A DNA stretch of 64,000 bases from Zychaea mexicana (taxonomy: Eukaryota; Mucoromycota; Mucoromycetes; Mucorales; Lichtheimiaceae), in contig NW_026516670.1 of assembly GCF_025766255.1 (NCBI RefSeq), positions 310,001 through 374,000 of the forward strand. The letters run 5' to 3'. The notes beneath the pieces were generated by a model that saw only the letters and a program-made list of their open reading frames with translations, was not told the origin of the DNA and did not search any database. Below are positions 39,844 through 61,458 of the stretch, in pieces; positions within the stretch are counted from its first letter, which is position 1; every line of letters begins with the position of its first letter. Both the position numbers and the translations under genes were made by a program.

Positions 39844-40695
39844 ACTGTTGTTGTTGTTAATAGACACTCCTAATATACTACCCGCTTACTTTATACTTGT
39901 GTATTACCTTATATATTGCTCAAGTCCGTTCGTGCATGGGCAATCCGAGAAGAAAGCAACATTTTTGTATTTAGGCTTATACATCACCATTACCACGGAT
40001 GAGAGAGTAGTGTGAATATGCTTCTGCATTATAACGGTAGTGTGCATATCAATAGGATGATTATCCTACCATGTTTTCGCTTATTTATTTTTTGTCCAAC
40101 AAAACATGGTTTGAGGCAGGGATTCTATGCTGCCAAAAATTATGTCCTATGCGGAATACGATAGAATGTGTTTCAAGCTTTCAGTCATCATCAAATATTG
40201 AACCGGACAATCAATGAGATCATACGATGATGATGACAAAGTTGAGTTTGAAGCGCTTATATAGTGTCCCCAAAACATGTACAAATCAGGGTTTTGGCCA
40301 AGTACATCGCTAGCGTAAAACGGAAAAACTGTTAAGATAAGGACGGTCCGTTTTAGTTTTTAAAACACCCTGTTCGCATCATGTATGTCCACAGAGCTAA
40401 TATTGCCTACTAACCAGCTGAACAATAGCATCATTGTTCATTTAACGCATGTGATTAGACAGCTGCATTATCCGGTATATTTTCGTAATATGTAGGAGGT
40501 TCTAAGTAAAGCAGCTTACTCTACAACCAATCAGTCAAGTCATTTATTAGCTGTCCGCGCTCGCCAAACGTAGTGGGTCAGTAGTTGTAGTACAGTAGCT
40601 GCAAAGAACTTGGTGAAAACTTGACATTTGATGGATTTGTTTGAACAAGGATTACAATATTCAAGCATGCCGAAAAGTATTTGATTTAATGCTTA
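39844..40695. other. Intergenic region before the Helitron remnant
   Basis: About 850 bp, AT-rich, no supported gene. It ends at the Helitron terminus. Confidence 0.5.
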
Positions 40696-43190
40696 CTAAC
40701 GGTCCTTCCTCGCTTCGCTCGGATGAATGAGCCCCTCCGCTTCGCTCCGTGTCATTCAACGGAAACGCGTCGCAAGGGGGTTCCCCCCAAACCCCCCTGT
40801 GGAGCGAGGTTAGATCAATGTCTTGGTAACAGATGCTTATTGTCTGTTTTCAAAAACAGAAGGAAGATCATTGTGCAGTGAGAAATAGTGTATCATAGAA
40901 AGTCGTCAAAGTTGGATACTTAACTATCTCCAGCTTAAATGCAACGCGAAAATAAGCGTAGAAAAAGATAATGTAGTGATATTTATAAGAAGGTAAAAGA
41001 GGATAGGCGACAAAAAGAATTAGTGAAGAACTTCATGGAAAACAACATTTCTTGTGTTTTGGCCTTGATGACCCGCGATACTTGAGTTCTCGAGATCTAA
41101 CATGATACTGATGGATGAAGGGGTGCGGACGCGCGACATGGCTACATAGAGTAGACCATGCGTGAAAGGAGGCTCAGGCAAGAAGTAGTGGCCAACAGTG
41201 TTGACCCTGTGCCTTTGTGATGGACATTGCAAATGCCAGGCGAACAGGGGATTGCGTGCGTTTAAATTGAATGGGAGAGGGTGTGAGTGTTATGCGGGGG
41301 ATCGGCATGAGGTCCACTGGCTATTTCAGCTTCAAGCACATATCGTTGAAAAGATCGTACAATCAGCCGTGTCCCGTTGCAGAGACCACTTGGGTGTGCA
41401 AGTTTCTCAATAGCATGATTGGGCAACCGACATTGAGTTTTAGCTAGTGTGGTGGGAGGTCGGATGGATTCATGGAGTTGAGCAGCTCTGGTGTTTATGT
41501 AATTTGATCCTCTGAATCATCCACGGTATCAGCGCTCTGGCCTGGGAAATGGTCGAGTACCAAATTATCAATTGCTGTAACATAGACATTCTTGGGAGTC
41601 AAGATGGAGCGACTGATGAGGTGATCAAGATCCACGCGTGGCGCGTTCAGGTCGCCGTAAATCGCTTCTATAAGCTCGTACGTGTTGTAATGTGGCATGA
41701 GCATCCGATCTGGTAGCCGGACTCTGTCATCAGTGGTTAGCACCGACAGCTCAGCACCATCACCGATGCAGAGTAAATATTGCATAAACTGTCCATGCTC
41801 GTTTGTGTCATTGGTGTTGGCAGGTTGTTGGACGCTCATGTTGGTTTCAAGGCGGTGGACGGTGACACTGGGCCAAATTGATGAACGATTTAGATGCTAC
41901 TGTACGATTTGCGAGCGCGATGCATTTGGTATGATATCATAGGAAGGACCTATCAACAGGTTTGATGCAGATACTTTGATGTAAGTACTACCGCTCGATA
42001 GTAAAAGGATGCAAAGTAGAAGAGAGAATACAATGTTGTATACCTGGCGAAATGCAACACCAAAGACCATGATTTCTTATCAAACGGAACATCGGCAAGC
42101 GCTGGATCGTCATGTTCCATGAGATTTTGGATACTCCTGTATACATACAGTATTAAATACGATGATACTTGTATTCAGCGTGTTTAAAGCGATGGCACTT
42201 CTCAGATGATGAAGGATTTGAGGTGAACTTCATATCGTGTTAAGGACGCTTATCCCCTCGAGTCTTTCCTCAATGCGATACCCGTCTACTCACATAGTCA
42301 TACATTCATGTGGAATAATTTTCTGATCTGGAGGAGCCACACACCTTGGCGCATCATAAACGTGAGAGAGTAATATGATTGGATAGATTGAACTGGCTTA
42401 AATGCCGCGTAGCATGTGTGTTCGTTACTACTATATAGCCGCTCTTCTTCCTCTTCGTCAACTTTTCTAAACCAAAGCTATTCAATGTGAGTGTCATTGG
42501 AACGGATCAGAGGATCGGAGAGTGTATGTTTATGGTGGTGAGTGAGAAGAGTGTATGCAACCGGTTGTGAGTATACAGTGATTTCTTTAAGATCCGTTTA
42601 TCTCACTTTCTTTCTTTTTTGACACAGACCTTCTTCTCGTCTTAACCTGGTCCTTCTCCCCTTCACGTTGGCTCTCAAAGCACAAATGCAAGAGTAAGTA
42701 CAATATGGAAAGTGTGAAGTGTACTTTGAGGTTTTGCATGTGGATGTGATATACGAAGAAAGATCTGAATTTTGACGTGTCTAAAGAAGTGTGTGTACAG
42801 CATGCAGCCGCTAATATTATCCTCCTTTCTTCTCTGCTACTACTGTAGAATTCTGACTTTTTGAAATGGTTGGTTCGGTTTGTTGTTTGCACCCCACCCT
42901 TAAACACAAGCAACAACCGTAAGTACGGTAGGGAATGAAATGTGAGGATGAGCTGGAGAGAAGTCGAGTGTCTGTTGGGGGTGCTGATGCCATGACGTGT
43001 CAAGAATAGTTGCATATTTAGAACAGCCTGCTCATGATTTTTCTTCTTTTCTTTCTACTTTAGGTTCCGCTTTATGCTGGTTGGTTTAATCGTGTCCGGC
43101 GGACAAGTAACAGATAGTAAGTATAAGCAAAAGGGGACTTGAACATTGGTAGGTGAGTAGGATGGCCTGGGTGCTTGGGATGACGTGCCA
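40696..43190 (-). mobile_element. Truncated Helitron, copy 1
   Basis: Homologous over about 2.4 kb to 57490-59846. On minus, the low-coordinate end is the 3' terminus: a GC-rich segment (GCGAAGCGAGGAAGGACC) then GTTAG followed by T, the CTRR-like end with A/T target expected of Helitrons (TTAG instead of CTAG). The only coding remnant is the end of a PIF1-like helicase. The Rep domain and 5' TC terminus are not visible. The high-coordinate edge is where similarity to copy 2 fades; copy-1-specific modules continue beyond it. Confidence 0.7.
41020..42125 (-). pseudogene. Helitron PIF1-like helicase C-terminal remnant, copy 1
   Basis: Pieces of the helicase survive in order: DDPALADVP near 42100; EAIYGDLNAPRVDLDHLISRSILTPKN (41495-41839, positions only); and FTHGLLYVAMSRVRTPSS to NVVFHEVLH (41020-41232), the natural C-terminus. 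The block with NKAQ is broken by indels between 41230 and 41490. Walker A is absent. Same origin as the copy at 57.7 kb but more decayed. Confidence 0.75.
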
Positions 43191-44306
43191 AGGGTGTGTA
43201 GTGTGCGCAGCAGCGTGACGGGAAAGGGTTCCTGACCATGACGTGTGCAGTATGGCAGTCTCTCAAAAAAAATTCTTTCTCTCCTCCCCTTTCTTCTCTT
43301 ATTCTTTTTTTCAGAATTGGTCGTGCCCTTCTTGCTTTTCCGCTCTCTAACTCAAGGCTCTCTTCCTCCAACTCAAGGATGTCATAATAGTAAGTGTAGC
43401 TGGAAAGGATTTTGTGCTTGTGTTTGTCTTTGCGTGTTTGAAGAACCAGTCTGCCGTGACATGTCAAAAAGTGTATGCAGCTGCTCATAGATGTTTTCTT
43501 TTTTCTATTATAACTTTGCTGTAAAACGACAAAACAAATGTAAGTGTAGCTAGATCCAGCTTGGGATGGAGGAGGATGGCCATGCCGTGTCAAAAATAAA
43601 GATAGCACAGTGGGTGCAGCCCTACAACGAATCTTTTTTTTCTAGCTAGAAGAGGTGTTTTTGTCTTGGCTGAAATTCTCTGCTCTGCTCTGGCCGTGTG
43701 TCCGGCTCTCCTGCGTCTCATCGTAGAAGTATGGGTAAGTATAGCACCATAGAATTTTTTTTGTGTGTGGTTTAACAGTTTCCCATTAACTGTTCGTCTC
43801 TTTTGTTTCTTGGAATGGCGATAGCGCACAGACACATCCACGCTAGTCAAGATTGATGCTCCACTGTCATCCCGCTCCGCTCCTAGAATCCGACCTGTCA
43901 AGTAGTCCATCGGCTGTGGTCAAGATCTATCCATCCATCTGGACGGTGGCGTATGCTTTTGCTTTGACTTGAACCTGAGGAAGTCGTTAAAAGCCTCATA
44001 TTCTTCTTGCGTTTTTATAAATATCTTTTCTTTTTCTGTGTGTTTCTATTTTGCTTTGTATATAATATCGTTATTGCTATCCTCTCCCCTTCCCTCTCTC
44101 CCCTCTCTCTCTCTCTTGCGCATCTGTATCGCCTAGTAGCCGCTGTTCCGTATCTATCATCGGATGTTGCATCGCCTCATGCGAACGGCATACTCCCCAC
44201 CCCAGGCAGCCTTCGGGCGTAAGTCTTGCACTCACCATTTACCCCAACCACGGGTCAAAAGTGCGGCCGAGGTCCCTCATGAATTTGGCGAATGCTTTGC
44301 GTAAGT
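42694..44306 (+). repeat. Array of GTAAGT-headed intron-like modules
   Basis: Perfect GTAAGT occurs on plus at 42694, 42919, 43117, 43390, 43540, 43735, 44219 and 44301 (and again at 44833). The first six begin GTAAGT followed by A/G-T/C-A/G, then carry a TGACGTGTCAA-like core 40-120 bp on, then a T/C-rich tract and a TAG or CAG. The segments between look like short exons but have no shared frame. The first two to three modules recur at 59358-59780. I call it a repeat, not a gene, because no continuous protein can be built. Confidence 0.55.
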
Positions 44307-45198
44307 ACTTGCTTTCTCTCTCTCACTCTCCGTGCGCGGGTGGAATTATATGGAAAGAGCGGAGGTTCCTTTTTTGGATTTTTCAGCTAACTTTTAAAGA
44401 TTTTAATAATAAAGATACTTTGTCAATTCATCAGAGCCATAGCCCCCTTTCCATGATGAACAGCTCGTATACACCACAACATGTCGTTTTTTATATTATA
44501 ATTAGAATGAGGGGCAATTCTGTAAGAAACAGAAATTTGCTAAACCAAGACCAAGAAGGTATATATCCACTATTTACTGAAAATGTCGAATGGTCTGTCT
44601 CGATAAGATATGAAAAGAAGTCCTTGAATCTTTGCCGGGGGAGGATCTCAACTTGCTCTCTTCTTATCGTCCTCGCAGTCTTGCTCGTCGTTAAAAACAT
44701 AGCCACGCAACAAAGATGACATGTACTCAAAAACGATTTACCATAATATTTTCTCTGGTGCATCACACTGAGAGATAGCCGTACAGTAGTAGCTTGCTCC
44801 CACAGTAATCAGTATGGGCTGCTGGGAATTATGTAAGTCTTTTCCTAGAAAGTCCACAGTGATGCTTCGTACGTTGATAGTTCGATAGCTAAAGTCGGAA
44901 GCATGTTGATCTGTCATGCGGCAATAGTGCTCGAAGATTTATAAGGATCCTCATACATCAAAGTTACTCGATACAAATACAAAGTATACGATTAGCAATA
45001 AAAGAATTATGTAATAAGGCATGACTCGTTTTCTTTAATTGAATAATATTATTCAACAGTAGCTGCTCACATTAAGGAGATTATGAAAAGTTTGATGATA
45101 ACCGCATCATATCCAGCCAATAACAATAAAATGAGTAGCTACGATAATGTTCATGCTTGCCCGCACGCTTTCTCTCTCTCCGCTCCAAGATCTCAACC
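44307..45198. other. Intergenic region upstream of Tfb3/MAT1
   Basis: AT-rich, with the Tfb3/MAT1 promoter at its right end. One further GTAAGT at 44833 may be a last module of the array or chance. No supported gene. Confidence 0.45.
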
Positions 45199-46818
45199 AT
45201 GGCAATGAAAGGAACACTACGAAACCAAACTTTAATGATTGGCAAATCGGGCTCTTCTGTGGTTTCTTACCAAGTAAGGCGGCAGCTCTCACATTATGTC
45301 AGTCCATTTTAGCATGCTTAAAAGTTGATTTATTCTTTGGGATCAATCCGATCGGTTTTCACTTTAGGAAGAAGATGCACAATGCCCTGTTTGTAAAAGT
45401 GACAAGTATCTCACGCCCAACCTCAAACTTCTCGTTTCACCATGTTTTCATAAAATGTATGTACCTGTTTGGGATTGCATCACAAAAGTGTGTTTGTCTT
45501 GAAATTGACCAGGAAGACTTACATGTATTCTTACCTTAGGTGTGAATCGTGTATCGATCGATTGTTCAGTGCGGGTCCTGCGCCATGTCCGATTTGTCAG
45601 CAAGTGCTGCGCAAGAATCAATTCATGTCTCAGATCTTTGAGGATCTTGCAGTTGAAAAAGAAGTGCGGATACGAAAACGAGTCAGCAAAGTGTATGTAA
45701 TTTTCTTATTGTGTGTATATGTTAATCTGTAGAAAGGCTATCGTTTAACAAGAGCAAGACATATTTCAGGTTTAATAAACGACCAGAAGATTTCCCAAGT
45801 TTACGGCTATATAATGATTTTTTAGAAGAAGTAGAAGATATAAGTAAGTAAGGACAAAGGAAAAAGAGCACGGTGCTGCTTGTGAATCAATACACACTGA
45901 CGTATGGTTAAATCAGCTTTCAATTTGATGAACGAGGTGGATGTTGCGGAGACCGAGGCTAGAATCACGGCATATGAGATGGAAAACAAAGACAGTATAG
46001 CAGCAAATGAGGCTAGAATGGTAAAGAAAATATCATGCGGTCTGATCATGTGGCTTCCCTCTCCCAAGGAAAATTTAAGCTTTTTTATTCTTTACTGGCC
46101 GATTTTATAGGCTAATGAGCAGCGATACATGAGCTATCAAGACCAACTTGAAAAGCAACAACGAGAACAGAAACGCGAAGAGTATTTGATGCTGCTTGAA
46201 GAAGAACGTCGGCAGAAAGAACACGAAAAAGCAGAGATCATTAGAGAACTGGTAATGGGACCCCGCTTATACGCATGCGGTGTGTCGTTCACCTGTGTGC
46301 GGGGTAAAAGAGAGAGAGTTTAGAAAGACAAGTGCCCGTTCCTAACGCTATATGTGTTACATAGGCAACATCAAACAAATCAGCACAGGCCGTTCTCGCC
46401 ACACGTCATTCTATCACACTCAAGAGGTCATCCGCTCTGCGACAACAGTCTGAAAGTAGCAGCCCGGCCAGACTGGCCATGCCCTCCTGGATCACAACTG
46501 CGATGGAGACCGATACCGAGATGCGGGATTCTGAGGCAAAGGACTTTGATCCGTTTGAATATCAGTACGAATTTGCAACCGGATTCGAAGTTCGTGACAG
46601 TTACGATGACCCGTAAGTCTAGGGATGGATAAGGATACCACGTTCCGCGATAGGTTCTCTGAGCGAGTGTTTTTTTATCTTTATTGTATAGATCAACCGA
46701 ATATCTTCACAGTAACAAACGAGCACGTGCTGGTGGATATGTTGCAAAATACGCTTTTGACCGAGCGCTGAGCGATGCATTCACAGGAATCGCTTGCATG
46801 CCGTTGGAAGGCAATTGA
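45199..46818 (+). CDS. Tfb3/MAT1, CDK-activating-kinase assembly factor of TFIIH (336 aa)
   Basis: Eight exons close in phase: 45199-45273, 45368-45456, 45540-45692, 45770-45843, 45917-46020, 46111-46251, 46365-46612 and 46692-46818 (1011 nt). The N-terminal RING has [32 protein letters not shown] and [13 protein letters not shown]. It is followed by the family linker ([20 protein letters not shown]), an E/Q/R-rich helical region for Kin28-Ccl1 (Cdk7-cyclin H) contact, and a hydrophobic C-terminus. It tethers the kinase to TFIIH for transcription initiation. ATG 45199 sits in AACCATGG; an in-frame ATG at 45235 is an alternative start that removes 12 residues. Confidence 0.92.
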
Positions 46819-48035: not shown

Positions 48036-50097
48036 TAAAATAAATACCACTAACCCTCTATATTATTTCAATATATGCACACAGTATAATAGCTTATTTG
48101 TTTCTCTTTTTCTTTGTATCCGTAATTATGCTGTTAAGCAGCTGTATAGTCTTTTAAAGTTGATAGCATGTTGATATATGATGGCTTGCAAGCAGCAAAA
48201 AAAATTAAGGTTTTCGCTGTGCTTCCAGAAGTACGCATCTTTTCGAGTAACTATACCTTAATAAGAGCCTTCAATGGTATGATGGAGCTTGATCACGGTA
48301 CAGCGCTCAATAGATAGATTGTTTGTCATTGGCTCAGAACGTTATTTTCTTACACAAGTATACGTGTGGACAAAAGTACATACACCCAGGCAATGGTATG
48401 ATGATGCTTGCTTTTACTACTACAACATTAACTTCTGCAACTGAGAGCCGATATGTGGTCAATAGGTATCTCGCGTGCAGGAGTTTCCTTTATTTGTGAC
48501 AAGAACATCAATTGATGAGCCACAACAACGACGCGAAAAGGCTGGCTTGGTGAGTGATATAACTCTGGGACCACGAGCACCCAGCTTTGAATAAACAGCA
48601 GTAGCTTCTATAGATTGAATGTGATGAGCTCCTCATGTTCGGTAAAAACAATTGACTTATCTATAGATGTACTGACGAAGGTATTGCTAATATGCATAGA
48701 TCTTTAAACAATGGCAGATACCGACCTTGCAATTGAATTAGTTTCTCTTTTTAGAGTAAAAGTACACATAGTCATTGGAGCATGCACAGACTTTCTGTAA
48801 AGGCTTATATTACTGAGATACTTATCGTCATCGGTACATGGTATTTCTTTTTCATTTAAAAGCAACAGTGTTCAATATAGCGAGTAATACAAATGCTAAT
48901 GTTCTTAACGATCTCAAGAGTTTCAATTCCTTTACAGTGGACTTGACGTCTTCACAGTAGTTAACACGTGTTTTAAGGGGTCTTCTTGAGCCAGATTTAT
49001 CGTTTGATGTTTGGAACAATCTGTTTAAGAATGTATATTTCATTATACGTAAAGGGTAAGCAGACGACTATACAGAGGAAGAGACGAAGTCAGATAAACG
49101 GGCAAAAGAAACAAGAGAACAATAGAGCAAAAAAAACATTTGAAGGTGGATGTCTATATCTCCTCAAACAATGGACTCCTTGTAACAGAGACAGAGCTGC
49201 CGTCTACAGGCTGGCTAGTACTCTTTTACTCTTATCGCTGCCTTCATCCCATGCGTATGCACTTTGTGATCAACAGCCAGAAATTCAGCGGTATCTAGAT
49301 CGTCGTCATCACCACCTTTGTTAATCATCTGTAAACTTTACATACTTCTAATGACATGTATGGCGGTGCTGGGGTGCGAAAACGAATACTTAATAGAGAG
49401 AGAACGATATAAATGTAACTGGACCAGCGACAAATATAAAGACTGTAACTCTGGAATGAACAGTGCAGATGATGTTTTGTAGAAGCGTTATATATGAGAT
49501 CATCCCATATGAGTGCAACAGAGATACTTACCTTTAATAAAAAAAAAAGAGACCAGGGATGTAGATGAAAGACAAAAAAGGACATGCTGCAAGCTAAGGA
49601 AGAGTCTCGAAGGGTAAGGCCACTGCATAATCAAAGAAAATACGTGTCAAAAAGAAGTTGTAAGCTGCAATACCAATGTTATGTGCGTAGAACGTTAAAT
49701 ATTTGGAACAAAACAAGACAAATACTACTACGGCACGCAAGTTCTGTGTGTATAAATTTAGTTATACACCTTAATACCAAATAAATACAGAAGAAAAACA
49801 TACTCATTGAACAGATTGGCTCGCAGTAACCGACAAAAATCCATTTTCTGTAACTAGAAAGAATGCACAGCAAGGTGGTACCAGGAATGTAGCACAGACA
49901 TGTACATATATATGAGTGAGACGCTTGCTAATTACAAAGATTTGGGCGTCTCAGTTAAAAGTCGAGCACGGCTCGTTTGCTCAAAAGAGGTTTTGAGTCA
50001 GTGATGATTTGTGCAAAGGCGGTGATAATATATTTAGAAGTTACACAAAAAGGCAACAATGCAGTTAAAAAATCGAAGCCTACGGCTACAATCAAGC
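48036..50097. other. Intergenic region
   Basis: About 2 kb with only short unsupported frames on both strands. No RNA gene was seen before the tRNA at its right edge. Confidence 0.5.
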
Positions 50098-50178
50098 GAC
50101 AACAGCAGGATTCGAACCTGCGCGGGCAGAGCCCATGAGATTTCGAGTCTCACGCCTTAACCGCTCGGCCATGTTGTC
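50098..50178 (-). tRNA. tRNA-Ser(CGA)
   Basis: On minus: acceptor arms GACAACA and TGTTGTC pair perfectly; the D-arm begins TGGCCGAGCGGTTAAGGC; the anticodon stem TGAGA/TCTCA encloses the loop CTCGAAA, giving anticodon CGA (reads UCG); a long variable arm (GGGCTCTGCCC) marks a class II tRNA; the T-arm is GCAGG-TTCGAAT-CCTGC. 81 nt, no intron, CCA not encoded, as in eukaryotes. A T-run terminator for RNA polymerase III is not obvious directly downstream. Confidence 0.95.
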
Positions 50179-57489: not shown

Positions 57490-59846
57490 CTAGCGGTCCT
57501 TCCTCGCTTCGCTCGGATGAATGAGCCCCTCCGCTACGCTCCGTGTCATTCAACGGAAACGCGTCGCAAGGGGGTTCCCCCCTTAACCTCCAAACCCCAC
57601 TGTCGAGCGAGGTTGGATCAATACCGTGGTATTAGATACTTATTGTCTGTTTTCAAAAACAAAAGCAAAATTACTGTGCAGTGAGAAGTATTCTATCATA
57701 GGAAGTCGTCAAAGTTGGATACTTACTATCTCCAGTTCAAATGCAAAGCGAATAGAAGTGTGGAAAAAGATGGTGTAGTAATATTGATAAATAGAGAATA
57801 GGTGGTGGTAACAAATGAAAAATAGGCGATATAATAAAAGAGAATAGGCGACAAAAAGAAATAGAGAAGAACTTCATGGAAAGCAACATCTCGGATGTTT
57901 TGACCTTGCTGACCCGTGATACTCGAGTTCTCGGGATCTAACATGATCCTGATGGATGAAGGGGTGCGGACGCGTGACATGGCTGCATAAAGTAGACCAT
58001 GCGTGAACGGAGGTTCAGGCAAGTAGAGGCCGACAGTGTTAAAAGTTTGAACCTGTGCCTTATTGAGGGTCATAGTGAATGCCAGGCGAACAGGGAATTG
58101 GGTGCGTTTGAAGAGAATGGGAGAGCGTGTTAGTGAATGTGTGAGTTTTATGCGAGGGATCAAGACAATGTTGCCGGCATGAGGTCCAGTGGCTATTTCA
58201 GCTTCAAATACATATCTTTGAAAAGAGCGTACAATCAGCCGTGTCCCGTTGCAGAGACCACTTTGGGTGTGCAAGTTTCTCAAAAGCATAATTGGGCAAC
58301 CGACTTTGAGTTTTAGCAAGTGTGGTGGGAGGTCGGATGGATTCATGGAATTGAGCAGCTCTGGTGGGTATGTGATCTGATTCTCTGGATCATCCACAGT
58401 ATCTGCGCTCGGGAATACGTGGATGGTGCCTGGGAAATGGTCGAGTATCAGATCGTTGAACGCTGAAACGTCGACATTCTTTGGAGTTAGAATGGAGCGA
58501 CTGATGAGGTAATCGCCATCCACGTGTGGTGCGTCAAGGCTGCCGTAAATGGCTTCGATGAGCGATTTAAGCACTGCTGTACGATCTGCGAGCGCGACGC
58601 ATTTGGTATCACTGGAAGGACCTATTACCATATACTTTACTCAGAGTACTACCGCTTAATAGTAAAAAACATGCAAAGTAGAAGAGAGGATACAATGTTG
58701 TGTACCTGGCAGAAGTCAACACCAAGGACCATAATTTTTCCACCAAATGGAACATCGGCAAGCGCGGGATCGTCATGTCTCATGAGATTTGGATACGCTT
58801 GTACGTATACGTTGATACTTGTATTGATACTTGTGTCCAGCGTGTTTAAAGCGATGACACTTCTCATATGATGAAGGACGTGAAATGAGCTTCATCTCGT
58901 GTTAATGAAGGTTATCCCCTTGAGTCTTTCCTCGATGCGATACCCGTCTACTCACATAGTCATACATTCATGTAGAACAAATTTTCTGATCTGGAGAAGC
59001 CACACATTTCGGCGCGTCATAAACGTGAGAGAGCAATCTGATTGGATAGATTGAACTGGCTCAAATGCCGTGTTCATTACTACAATATAACCGTGCGGCC
59101 GCAGCAATCATGGGGCTCTTCTGCCTCCTCGTCAACTTTTCTAAGCCAAAGCTATTCAACGCGAGTATCATTGGAACGAATTAAAGGATCGAAGAGTGAA
59201 TGTTTATAATTGTGAGTGAGAGGAGCGTATGCAACCGCTTGTGAGTATACCAAGTTCTGTTATCTCACTTTCTTTCTTTTTTGACACAAACCTGCTTCTC
59301 GTCTTAACCTGGTCCATCTCCCCCTCACGTTGGCTCTCAAAGCACAAATGCAAGTGTAAGTACAATATGGAAAATGTGAAGTGTACTTTGAGGTTTTTGC
59401 GCGTGGATGTGATATACGAAAGAAGATCTGAACTTCAACGTCTAAAGAAGTGTGTGTACAGCATACAGCTGCTAATTTTATCCTCCTTTCTTCTCTGCTA
59501 CTACTGTAGGAGTCTGACTTTTTGAAATGGTTGGTTCGTTTTGTTTTTGCACCCCACCCTTAAGCACACGCAACAACTGTAAGTACGGTAGGGAATGAAA
59601 TGTGAGCATGGGCTGGAGAGAAGTCGAGTGTCTGTTGGGGGTGCTGATGCCATGACGTGTCAAAAGTAGCTGCATTTTTGGAACAGTCTGCTTATGGTCA
59701 TTCTTCTTTTCTTTCTACTTCAGGTTCCGCTTTATGCTGGTTGGGTTAATCTTGTCCGGCGGACAAGTAACAGATAGTAAGAAAGGGGACTCGAACATTG
59801 GTAGGTGAGTAGGATGGCCTGGGTGCTTGGAATTGACGTGTCAAAG
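57490..59846 (-). mobile_element. Truncated Helitron, copy 2
   Basis: Second copy of the element at 40.7 kb. On minus its 3' end is GCGAGGAAGGACCG-CTAG followed by T, a textbook Helitron CTRR terminus inserted before T. It retains the last part of the helicase, a transition region and the first GTAAGT modules (59358, 59580). The 5' end and Rep domain are missing. Confidence 0.75.
57726..58867 (-). pseudogene. Helitron PIF1-like helicase C-terminal remnant, copy 2
   Basis: An upstream fragment (58649-58867) has HDDPALADVPFGGKIMVLG-V-DFCQ, the Walker B region of Helitron helicases, where the family usually has GGDFRQ. After a frame break, 58631-57726 stays open: LISRSILTPKN, GCPIMLLRNL, FPVRLAFTMTLNKAQVQTF (usually NKAQGQT) and FTHGLLYAAMSRVRTP. 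The usual stop after FHEVL is lost and the frame runs on about 40 residues. Walker A and Rep are absent. Confidence 0.85.
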
Positions 59847-61458
59847 GTGATAGACAACTTAAAAAGAAGCCTGTAGTTTTAAACAGTTTTCGGCAGTAAT
59901 TAAGTACGTCTTTACAGGTGATATGAAGCATTGTAAGATAAGTATTTTATACATACTTGAGTGCCTCTCGTACTGTTGTTACTTCCATCATTCCCGAACA
60001 AGTGCTATTGTTTCAATTATCACGTCTTCCCTTCCTGTTCTCGCGTTACATGGAAAGGTATACAGCATTTGAGTGCGTTTTTTAAAGAGATAGGTAAAAT
60101 GTAATACTAGGTTTGACTATACGATTACAGTGCCTCTAGTGCTCTTGCTGTTCATCTAATATCTCGACTAACTGTTAGGGCCTTTTTGGGCCTTACAAGG
60201 CCTTGGAGAGCCATTTTAGTAGGATTTTGAAAGGCTACAAACGGCATATTGAACCTTTCAAATGTTGCTCCCAGCAGGCACTCCTGCCTAAGCAAATATC
60301 TCTGTTCGGCTTCGTCGGAAATTTGAAATTGCAATCTTATGCTTTTTAAGACCTTCGAAGGCTTTTAAAAGCTTTCCACCTCTGATGCTGGAGGAAATAA
60401 CATCATCGATGCATGAGCTGCAATGATGGCCATGGTACAGTAGTGACACTACCGATTCTTCGAAAGATGAGAGAATTAAAGTAGCTTTGCTCTTTGCTAC
60501 ATTTTGTTTTTTCAACTTTGAATAACCAGACCGGTACATTCAATCATTGCTATTCTGCTTGGTTATTACCGAAGTTTCACCGCTCTCATATAGAGCTGTA
60601 TCATGATTTTGAATCAAGTTTCTAAATGGACATAGCTTGTGTAGAGCTGTGTGCAAGTAAAGACGAGAATTCTAATCGCATTCATGCATTGAGCGTGTGC
60701 CATGGACAAGACAGTATGGCTTTGGTGTGCTATGAAGATCTAGCGCATCAAGAACACGAATATACATAAGCACATTACGCTGATCTTAATATGTGATATA
60801 ACAGCATGCTGTATTTACTCAGATGGGGCTATGATTTTTTCAATCTCCTTATATATTCTTAGCAAGGCGCTTTCATTGATGCTCTTATTACTGATGTTTA
60901 TGTAGTAAGTAACGCAATTCTTTGCGCTACAAGAGACCGAAGTGCCTATATAGTCCTTTGGAAAGTTTAAATGCTTACGCGTTATACTAAAATTTTCTTG
61001 AGAAAATCACAAATTTCTAGCAGACATGAGCAGAGGCACATATATTTAGTTATCATATCCTGAAGTTATCAAAAAGAGTAAAGAGTATCTGTGTGTGCAG
61101 ACCTCAAAATTATAAAGTTGCGTTTATGCAACCTGTTCCTGCATATTACACGTCATAATTTAGTATATCTACACTATCGCTTAGATTCATTAAAGCTCAG
61201 ATAGATGTTTATATATCTAGTATCTGTTTTCAGAGCTCATTTTTAAGTAAGTATTGTAGTCGCATTGCGGTGCTGTATCGGAAAAGCGGCTGTGGATACG
61301 AAGAAGCACGTACTGATTTTCCTGTTGAAGGAAGTGCACCCAACGACCGTGATTGTGATTGTCGGAGAATGACATCATCATATTGAATGGGGATTATTAT
61401 TTTGTCGTCGGGCTAGGCAGCTAAGCCGTTTTTCACTCCCTTATCCACAACACATATA
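59847..61458. other. Intergenic region upstream of COX8
   Basis: About 1.6 kb. No supported gene. A minus-strand frame at 60288-60539 is open but unrecognised. The COX8 promoter should lie just below 61459. Confidence 0.45.

Follow-up and report, generated by a model that had tools for sequence, protein, structure and literature searches.

A multi-intron array, probably a non-coding spliced unit, as cargo of a non-autonomous Helitron in Zychaea mexicana

Helitrons capture exons, and the captured pieces are usually thought to drift. A canonical rolling-circle Helitron has a 5' TC, a 3' CTRR, an A/T insertion site without target duplication, a hairpin 10-12 nt before its 3' end, and a RepHel protein. 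Multi-exon non-coding host genes such as GAS5 and UHG combine short non-coding exons with introns that contain conserved stretches. As described in the accessible parts of the respective reports, Helitrons of Pleurotus ostreatus (HELPO1) carry captured genes (PMC4289320), and introners are single-intron insertions in many genes (PMC9860276). Here we analyze a 64,000-nt stretch of the Zychaea mexicana genome (contig NW_026516670.1, positions 310,001 to 374,000; hereafter the window), in which a Helitron carries an array of segments that each begin with the splice-donor hexamer GTAAGT. We consider it probable that the cargo carried by this non-autonomous Helitron subfamily is a non-coding transcription unit with six to seven spliceosomal introns, antisense to the helicase remnant of the element and directed outward across its 5' end.

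The array stands out by its donors. GTAAGT occurs eight times on the + strand (42694, 42919, 43117, 43390, 43540, 43735, 44219, and 44301) and is absent from the - strand of the same interval (42501-44420). By chance, 0.40 occurrences would be expected on a single strand of 1,613 b (P ~1e-8), or 0.67 when calculated from local dinucleotides over 1,920 b, and the maximum in an equal-sized window among 179 other permutation/strand controls was six. A first-pass annotation of this DNA had regarded eight such hexamers in about 1.6 kb of one strand as beyond chance, which these counts confirm; the ninth that it listed, at 44833, is a genuine + strand site located outside the repeat, which ends at 44415. 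Its description of a related body after each of the first six donors holds for five, where the TGACGTGTCAA core or a close form follows, and fails for the body after 43735. As for the pyrimidine tract before an AG, the best tract within 210 b of the donor scored 15-19 of 20 at 42694, 42919, 43117, 43735, 44219, and 44301, 14 of 20 after 43540, and 11 of 20 after 43390, whose acceptor is missing from the window copy (random starts average 11.8 of 20).

The first-pass annotation had also proposed Helitron cargo as one option, and the ends of the element bear this out. With a slash marking the element boundary, the window copy reads A/TCTTTATTATT at the 5' end and ...ACCGTTAG/T at the 3' end of the Helitron strand. 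In other copies, the 5' end (- strand) begins with TC as TCTTTATTATT or TCTTCTTTATTATT (TCTATATTATT in L018); the search pattern, which itself contained TC, returned 13 rows, including an additional match from the flank of L016. The 3' end is ...GGAAGGACCGCTAG, and among the 12 rows matched by pattern, ten have CTAG, the exceptions being L019 (CTAA) and the window copy (TTAG). The patterns missed the ends of some copies (5', e.g., L009, L011, and L019; 3', e.g., L009, L011, L015, and L017). Non-tandem copies have 5' boundaries of the form a/TC and 3' boundaries of the form .../t and are thus inserted between A and T, while three junctions join elements end to end (CTAG/TCTTTATT and CTAG/TCTATACT on C295, CTAG/TCTATATT on C260). 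A 3' hairpin was suspected initially, but two folded copies gave no support, as neither outperformed shuffled sequences (z +1.2 and +0.4). Besides the window copy, a 607-b segment of the array was found 39 times with 89-98% identity over nearly its full length (40 scored of 63 candidates in the 50.3-Mb genome), and shorter pieces were located at 47 places (intron-4 core) and 55 places (24-mer of exon 7, up to three mismatches). A genome search for the array bodies, which the annotation had suggested, returns dozens of copies, and these move as whole Helitrons. The TC/CTRR-like ends, A/T flanks, dozens of copies, and helicase fragment together identify a non-autonomous Helitron of 3,720 b, whose features are collected in the table. 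As a side observation, L010, L011, and L067 terminate in TTTTGTGAGTKA where the Helitron 5' end is expected (L010:6810-6960), and L010 has repeats of approximately GGAACGCAGTTGGAACGCAAGCCAAA beyond its end.

Table. Features of the array-bearing Helitron and its surroundings (window coordinates; GT and AG fractions are copies that keep the dinucleotide)
Feature	Position	Strand	Remarks
Non-autonomous Helitron with array	40696..44415	-	3,720 b; 5' end 44415, 3' end 40696; copies align over ~40694-44415
Broken C-terminal fragment of Pif1-type Helitron helicase, no Rep domain	41020..42174	-	Open reading frame (ORF) pieces, Pfam
Putative exon 1	42630..42693	+	Ends at first conserved donor; start putative
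Intron 1	42694..42848	+	Donor GTAAGTAC, acceptor TGTAG; GT 33/34, AG 33/34
Intron 2	42919..43063	+	Carries TGACGTGTCAA; GT 34/34, AG 33/34
Intron 3	43117..43314	+	Two TGACGTG cores; GT 33/33, AG 33/34
Intron 4	43390..43509	+	Window copy lacks acceptor and part of exon 5; GT 34/34, AG 32/33
Most conserved 39-mer, intron 4	43456..43494	+	From TGACATGTCA core to putative branch point
Intron 5	43540..43645	+	GT 32/34, AG 34/34
Intron 6	43735..43824	+	No TGACGTGTCAA core; assumed acceptor GCGATAG; GT 34/34, AG 33/33
Long exon 7	43825..44218	+	Includes conserved block 43847-43881
Last intron	44219..44386	+	Two possible donors, 44219 and 44301; one acceptor, TTTTTCAG, at 44386
AATAAA, possible polyadenylation signal	44408..44413	+	Opposite strand of Helitron 5' end
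MAT1/TFB3-like gene	45200-46000	+	~0.8 kb downstream of Helitron
tRNA-Ser (CGA)	50096-50178	-	Ordinary; long variable arm usual for tRNA-Ser
Second, truncated copy of element	57490..59849	-	Introns 1, 2, and part of intron 3; 3' end CTAG/T; BLAST, sequence

The array occupies the strand opposite to that of the truncated helicase and points out of the element across its 5' end. Alignment with other copies reveals a gap in the window copy at 43509, where it has lost the acceptor of intron 4 together with a portion of exon 5. In L010, which keeps exon 5, introns 1-6 measure 155, 147, 196, 117, 97, and 88 nt and exons 2-6 measure 70, 53, 81, 90, and 89 nt. The donors at 44219 and 44301 probably share the single acceptor at 44386; GT is kept in 32 of 32 copies at each, and the acceptor string TTTTTCAG is found in 27 of 34. 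The AATAAA on the strand opposite the Helitron 5' terminus could mark the end of the unit.

Conservation across copies supports the GT-AG architecture. Counts were made on 34 of 40 listed copies (the window copy, L009-L020, L041, and L042-L061), with gapped sites set aside and the truncated copy W2 aligned but left out. Of 267 donor sites, 264 retain GT and 251 the full GTAAGT hexamer; of 202 acceptor sites, 198 retain AG. In a FastTree phylogeny built from the copies, one change in the 48 donor columns maps to internal branches, compared with 12.1-12.3 expected from base context and neighborhood, and 11 map to terminal branches, compared with 25.5-27.1. Relative to resampled composition-matched hexamers (51), this depletion is significant for internal branches (P 0.009), terminal branches (P 0.045), and both combined (P 0.002), and a simpler block test gave P 0.006 for donors. 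The intron-4 39-mer ranks first of 1768 windows, being perfect in 85% of the 34 copies and at 38 of the 47 genome places. Across the whole element, compared in 14 copies, the array makes up about half the length and contains 16 of the 22 best conserved 30-mers, including nine of the top ten; the most variable stretch, with gaps counted, falls in the helicase remnant (~41500-41870). In the exon 7 block, none of the 30 scored columns differed among these 14 copies.

The exons were then considered for coding capacity, as the array could be a decayed protein-coding host gene that a Helitron captured with its introns, leaving splice sites as relics of a lost protein. Gene capture by fungal Helitrons is known, as far as the accessible part of that report goes (PMC4289320), exon 4 varies in steps of three (75, 78, or 81 nt), and in 25 of 34 copies a common frame of 85 codons runs through exons 2-5. 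The impression from the first-pass annotation that the exon-like pieces share no frame was thus in part an effect of the window copy, in which the frame is hidden because the stretch with the intron-4 acceptor was lost. The frame nonetheless evolves as if neutral, with 61 nonsynonymous and 27 synonymous changes (ratio 2.26, against 2.34 expected without selection). Stop-free frames of at least 45 codons gave no coding signal on either strand, spliced or not (|z| ≤1.45), whereas this kind of count does reveal constraint in Rep and in the helicase fragment (see below). Pfam returned no match for the array frame, and a protein search found no homologue at E ≤1 among five candidates, so that the clean homologous protein spanning the pieces, named in the annotation as a finding that would speak against it, did not appear. 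Relic donors, moreover, should not outlast matched hexamers. We therefore consider a decayed gene unlikely. L010, L067, and L068, which lack the Helitron halves, were examined as a source; they look like truncated or old copies, and none was shown to be one.

Another explanation places the constraint on the DNA itself, with the repeated TGACRTGTCA palindromes or other blocks binding proteins or serving transposition and the donors as mere passengers. The top-ranked 39-mer contains the palindrome TGACATGTCA, and there are further conserved blocks both within exon 7 and ahead of exon 1. This explanation does not account for donors that are themselves depleted of change at eight separate places, and comparison with Rep-bearing elements speaks against a function in transposition. 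At L041:46-5881, a Helitron that bears both Rep and a helicase, and of which both ends are visible, has no array despite being flanked by two array copies. The surrounding stretch, L041:1-9769 (C295:505900-515668), runs from an array-copy end through this 5.8-kb element into a further array copy, joined CTAG/TC with no spacer. The array was also absent from the fetched 3.4-3.9 kb upstream of Rep at C76, C224, C68, and C245, stretches in which the Helitron 5' ends were not located and of which, at C76, ~2.4 kb lie beyond a neighboring array element; a fifth locus, C259, is cut by the contig end and is uninformative. On the strength of this element and four of the five upstream stretches, we rejected the idea that autonomous Helitrons normally contain the array. 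Since it is not seen in the Rep-bearing elements examined, the array is dispensable for transposition as such, and we regard constraint at the DNA level as decidedly unlikely.

For the helicase remnant of the window copy, Pfam scores were 18.1 bits for PIF1 and 18.3 bits for Pif1_2B, both below cut-off, and the third ORF piece had no match, while the counterpart region in L041 matches Pif1_2B with an E of 2.8e-20. Of the RepHel protein, the array element holds only this C-terminal helicase fragment and is hence non-autonomous. Elsewhere in the genome, Helitron_like_N (the Rep domain) gave 129 matches, of which 128 were over cut-off, with some loci counted in two pieces; these often sit in long open frames, in a genome rich in Helitrons. 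Across 14 array copies (L041:6309-7076 included), the helicase fragment displays a synonymous excess, with 142 synonymous and 155 nonsynonymous changes where 84.6 synonymous were expected (z 7.4); the same kind of count for Rep gave z 14.2 (10 sequences). Such constraint on a helicase fragment without Rep means either that the fragment is used or that it undergoes recombination with Rep-bearing elements; the helicases of some of these share 84-93% identity with the fragment.

Alignment of the modules, as proposed in the first-pass annotation, revealed likeness beyond the donor hexamer. Intron 1 resembles intron 4 (I1 and I4, z 6.1), I2 resembles I5 (z 6.6), and exon 3 resembles exon 6 (E3 and E6, z 3.5). 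Four other pairs (I1-I5, I2-I4, I3-I5, and I4-I5) reached z 3.1-4.7, and the remaining nine of 15 intron pairs were within chance (z -1.0 to 1.8). The segment from I1 through E3 aligns colinearly with that from I4 through E6 over ~400 nt (score 64, z 14.3; larger blocks z 9.9), indicating tandem duplication of a block with at least two introns. Offsets of 702, 684, and 670 nt separate the starts of introns 1-3 from those of introns 4-6 in L010. Other block registers gave z 5.4-8.3, whereas the z of 51 for I1-E3 against I2-E4 is trivial, as the two overlap. Duplication of a three-intron block was considered and set aside, as only the I1-E3/I4-E6 likeness is supported (I3 against I6, z 1.8; E2 against E5, z 1.3). 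The weaker likeness between other pairs and registers points to an older duplication or to common intron signals, and movement of single introns need not be invoked.

Such movement is what the annotation had offered as a third possibility, namely introner-like introns multiplying in tandem. In its favor are the likeness outside the main register (I2-I4, z 3.8; I4-I5, z 4.7; and the block registers above) and the distribution of the TGACGTGTCAA pattern, which occurs at 67 genome places, compared with 12 for the reversed pattern, with ~30 of the 67 outside known array copies when sorted by eye. The strongest likeness, by comparison, extends colinearly over two successive intron-exon pairs, and copies spread as whole Helitrons. 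The listed copies account for 45 of the 47 intron-4-core places; of the other two, C223:406065 has a helicase-fragment match 1.6 kb away, leaving only C201:91724. We accordingly regard introner-like multiplication, the possibility that the annotation raised, as very unlikely, the more so as a block duplication accounts for most of the likeness. On C25, three of the TGACGTGTCAA places outside array copies follow one another at intervals of 2.7 kb.

The exons are short, the introns are long and include conserved segments, and no reading frame is constrained, all of which would also suit a host gene for intron-encoded small nucleolar RNAs (snoRNAs) or another structured RNA. Between 41500 and 45500, Rfam gave three weak matches that fell far short of cut-off, and nothing in the array exceeded it. 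When folded, the six introns of one copy did not outperform shuffled sequences (z 0.0 to +0.8), and a scan of that copy found no C/D-box pair with a terminal stem, H/ACA boxes being covered by Rfam only. We rejected a snoRNA host gene on these results, which render any reading of this type improbable in the extreme.

We return to the non-coding transcription unit as our preferred reading. Of the possibilities in the first-pass annotation, a non-coding spliced transcript best describes the nature of the cargo, given splice sites that are kept and an array in which no coding constraint is seen; that the unit is transcribed and spliced is inferred from sequence. Several observations weigh against this reading or limit it. 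Selection was tested on 48 columns only, and acceptors compared with random blocks were not significant alone (P 0.13). The assumed intron-6 acceptor, GCGATAG, has no strong pyrimidine tract, and another AG scores higher. Terminal branches also carry fewer donor changes than expected, a pattern that drift of dead copies alone would not produce. Conservation extends to exon 7 and to parts of other exons, so splicing is not the sole possible constraint. We initially noted that introns change more slowly than exons (0.186 versus 0.333 internal changes per column), a comparison that we withdrew as it is confounded by region; by hand, E1-E5 (~0.15) and I1-I4 (~0.13) scarcely differ. Finally, the protein search described above yielded no relative, and no parent gene was found.

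How such a unit might persist can be outlined. Its capture, from a host gene or another one, may have preceded the spread of the family, and its splicing may have been useful to the lineages that multiplied. Donors that bind U1, together with splicing, could keep an outward, promoter-driven transcript productive, a role that we hold to be the most likely one, though it is a guess. Equally a guess, the transcript would be a spliced long non-coding RNA (lncRNA) that ends at AATAAA in the Helitron end, or it would run into flanking genes. A broader proposal, speculative but not far-fetched, is that the Helitron lineage maintains a non-coding, multi-intron, outward unit since splicing or U1 binding helps the element, for example through long transcripts into neighbors or a transposon lncRNA. 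At this locus, an outward transcript would head towards the MAT1/TFB3-like gene, which lies downstream on the same strand as the array. This gene matches Cunninghamella at 86% over the whole query and Phascolomyces (96%) and Halteromyces (93%) over 80% of it, in keeping with a Mucorales host.

In this dispersed family, splice donors and intron stretches of a cargo without recognizable coding thus rank with the best conserved features. If the unit is indeed spliced, the family would supply, within a single genome, about fifty natural replicates whose loci are known, with which to study what a transposon gains from spliced non-coding RNA, and would allow one to ask whether a transposon feeds promoters and donors to neighboring genes.

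Compared with known systems, the array resembles GAS5 and UHG in its short non-coding exons and conserved intron stretches and differs in that no snoRNA was found in its introns by Rfam, folding, or the C/D-box scan of one copy. Among the matches listed in our literature search, titles and abstract openings do not describe cargo of this kind. The accessible part of the Pleurotus ostreatus report presents captures that are annotated as gene models and located downstream of the RepHel helicase in autonomous elements (PMC4289320). Set against these, the cargo described here contains multiple introns and a tandem intron-exon block duplication, shows no coding constraint, and is located close to the Helitron 5' end on the opposite strand. 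The word Helitron is absent from the accessible main text of the introner report (PMC9860276). Introners, as described there, and the array have in common repeated spliceosomal introns tied to a DNA transposon (PMC9860276), but the introns of the array travel within Helitron cargo.

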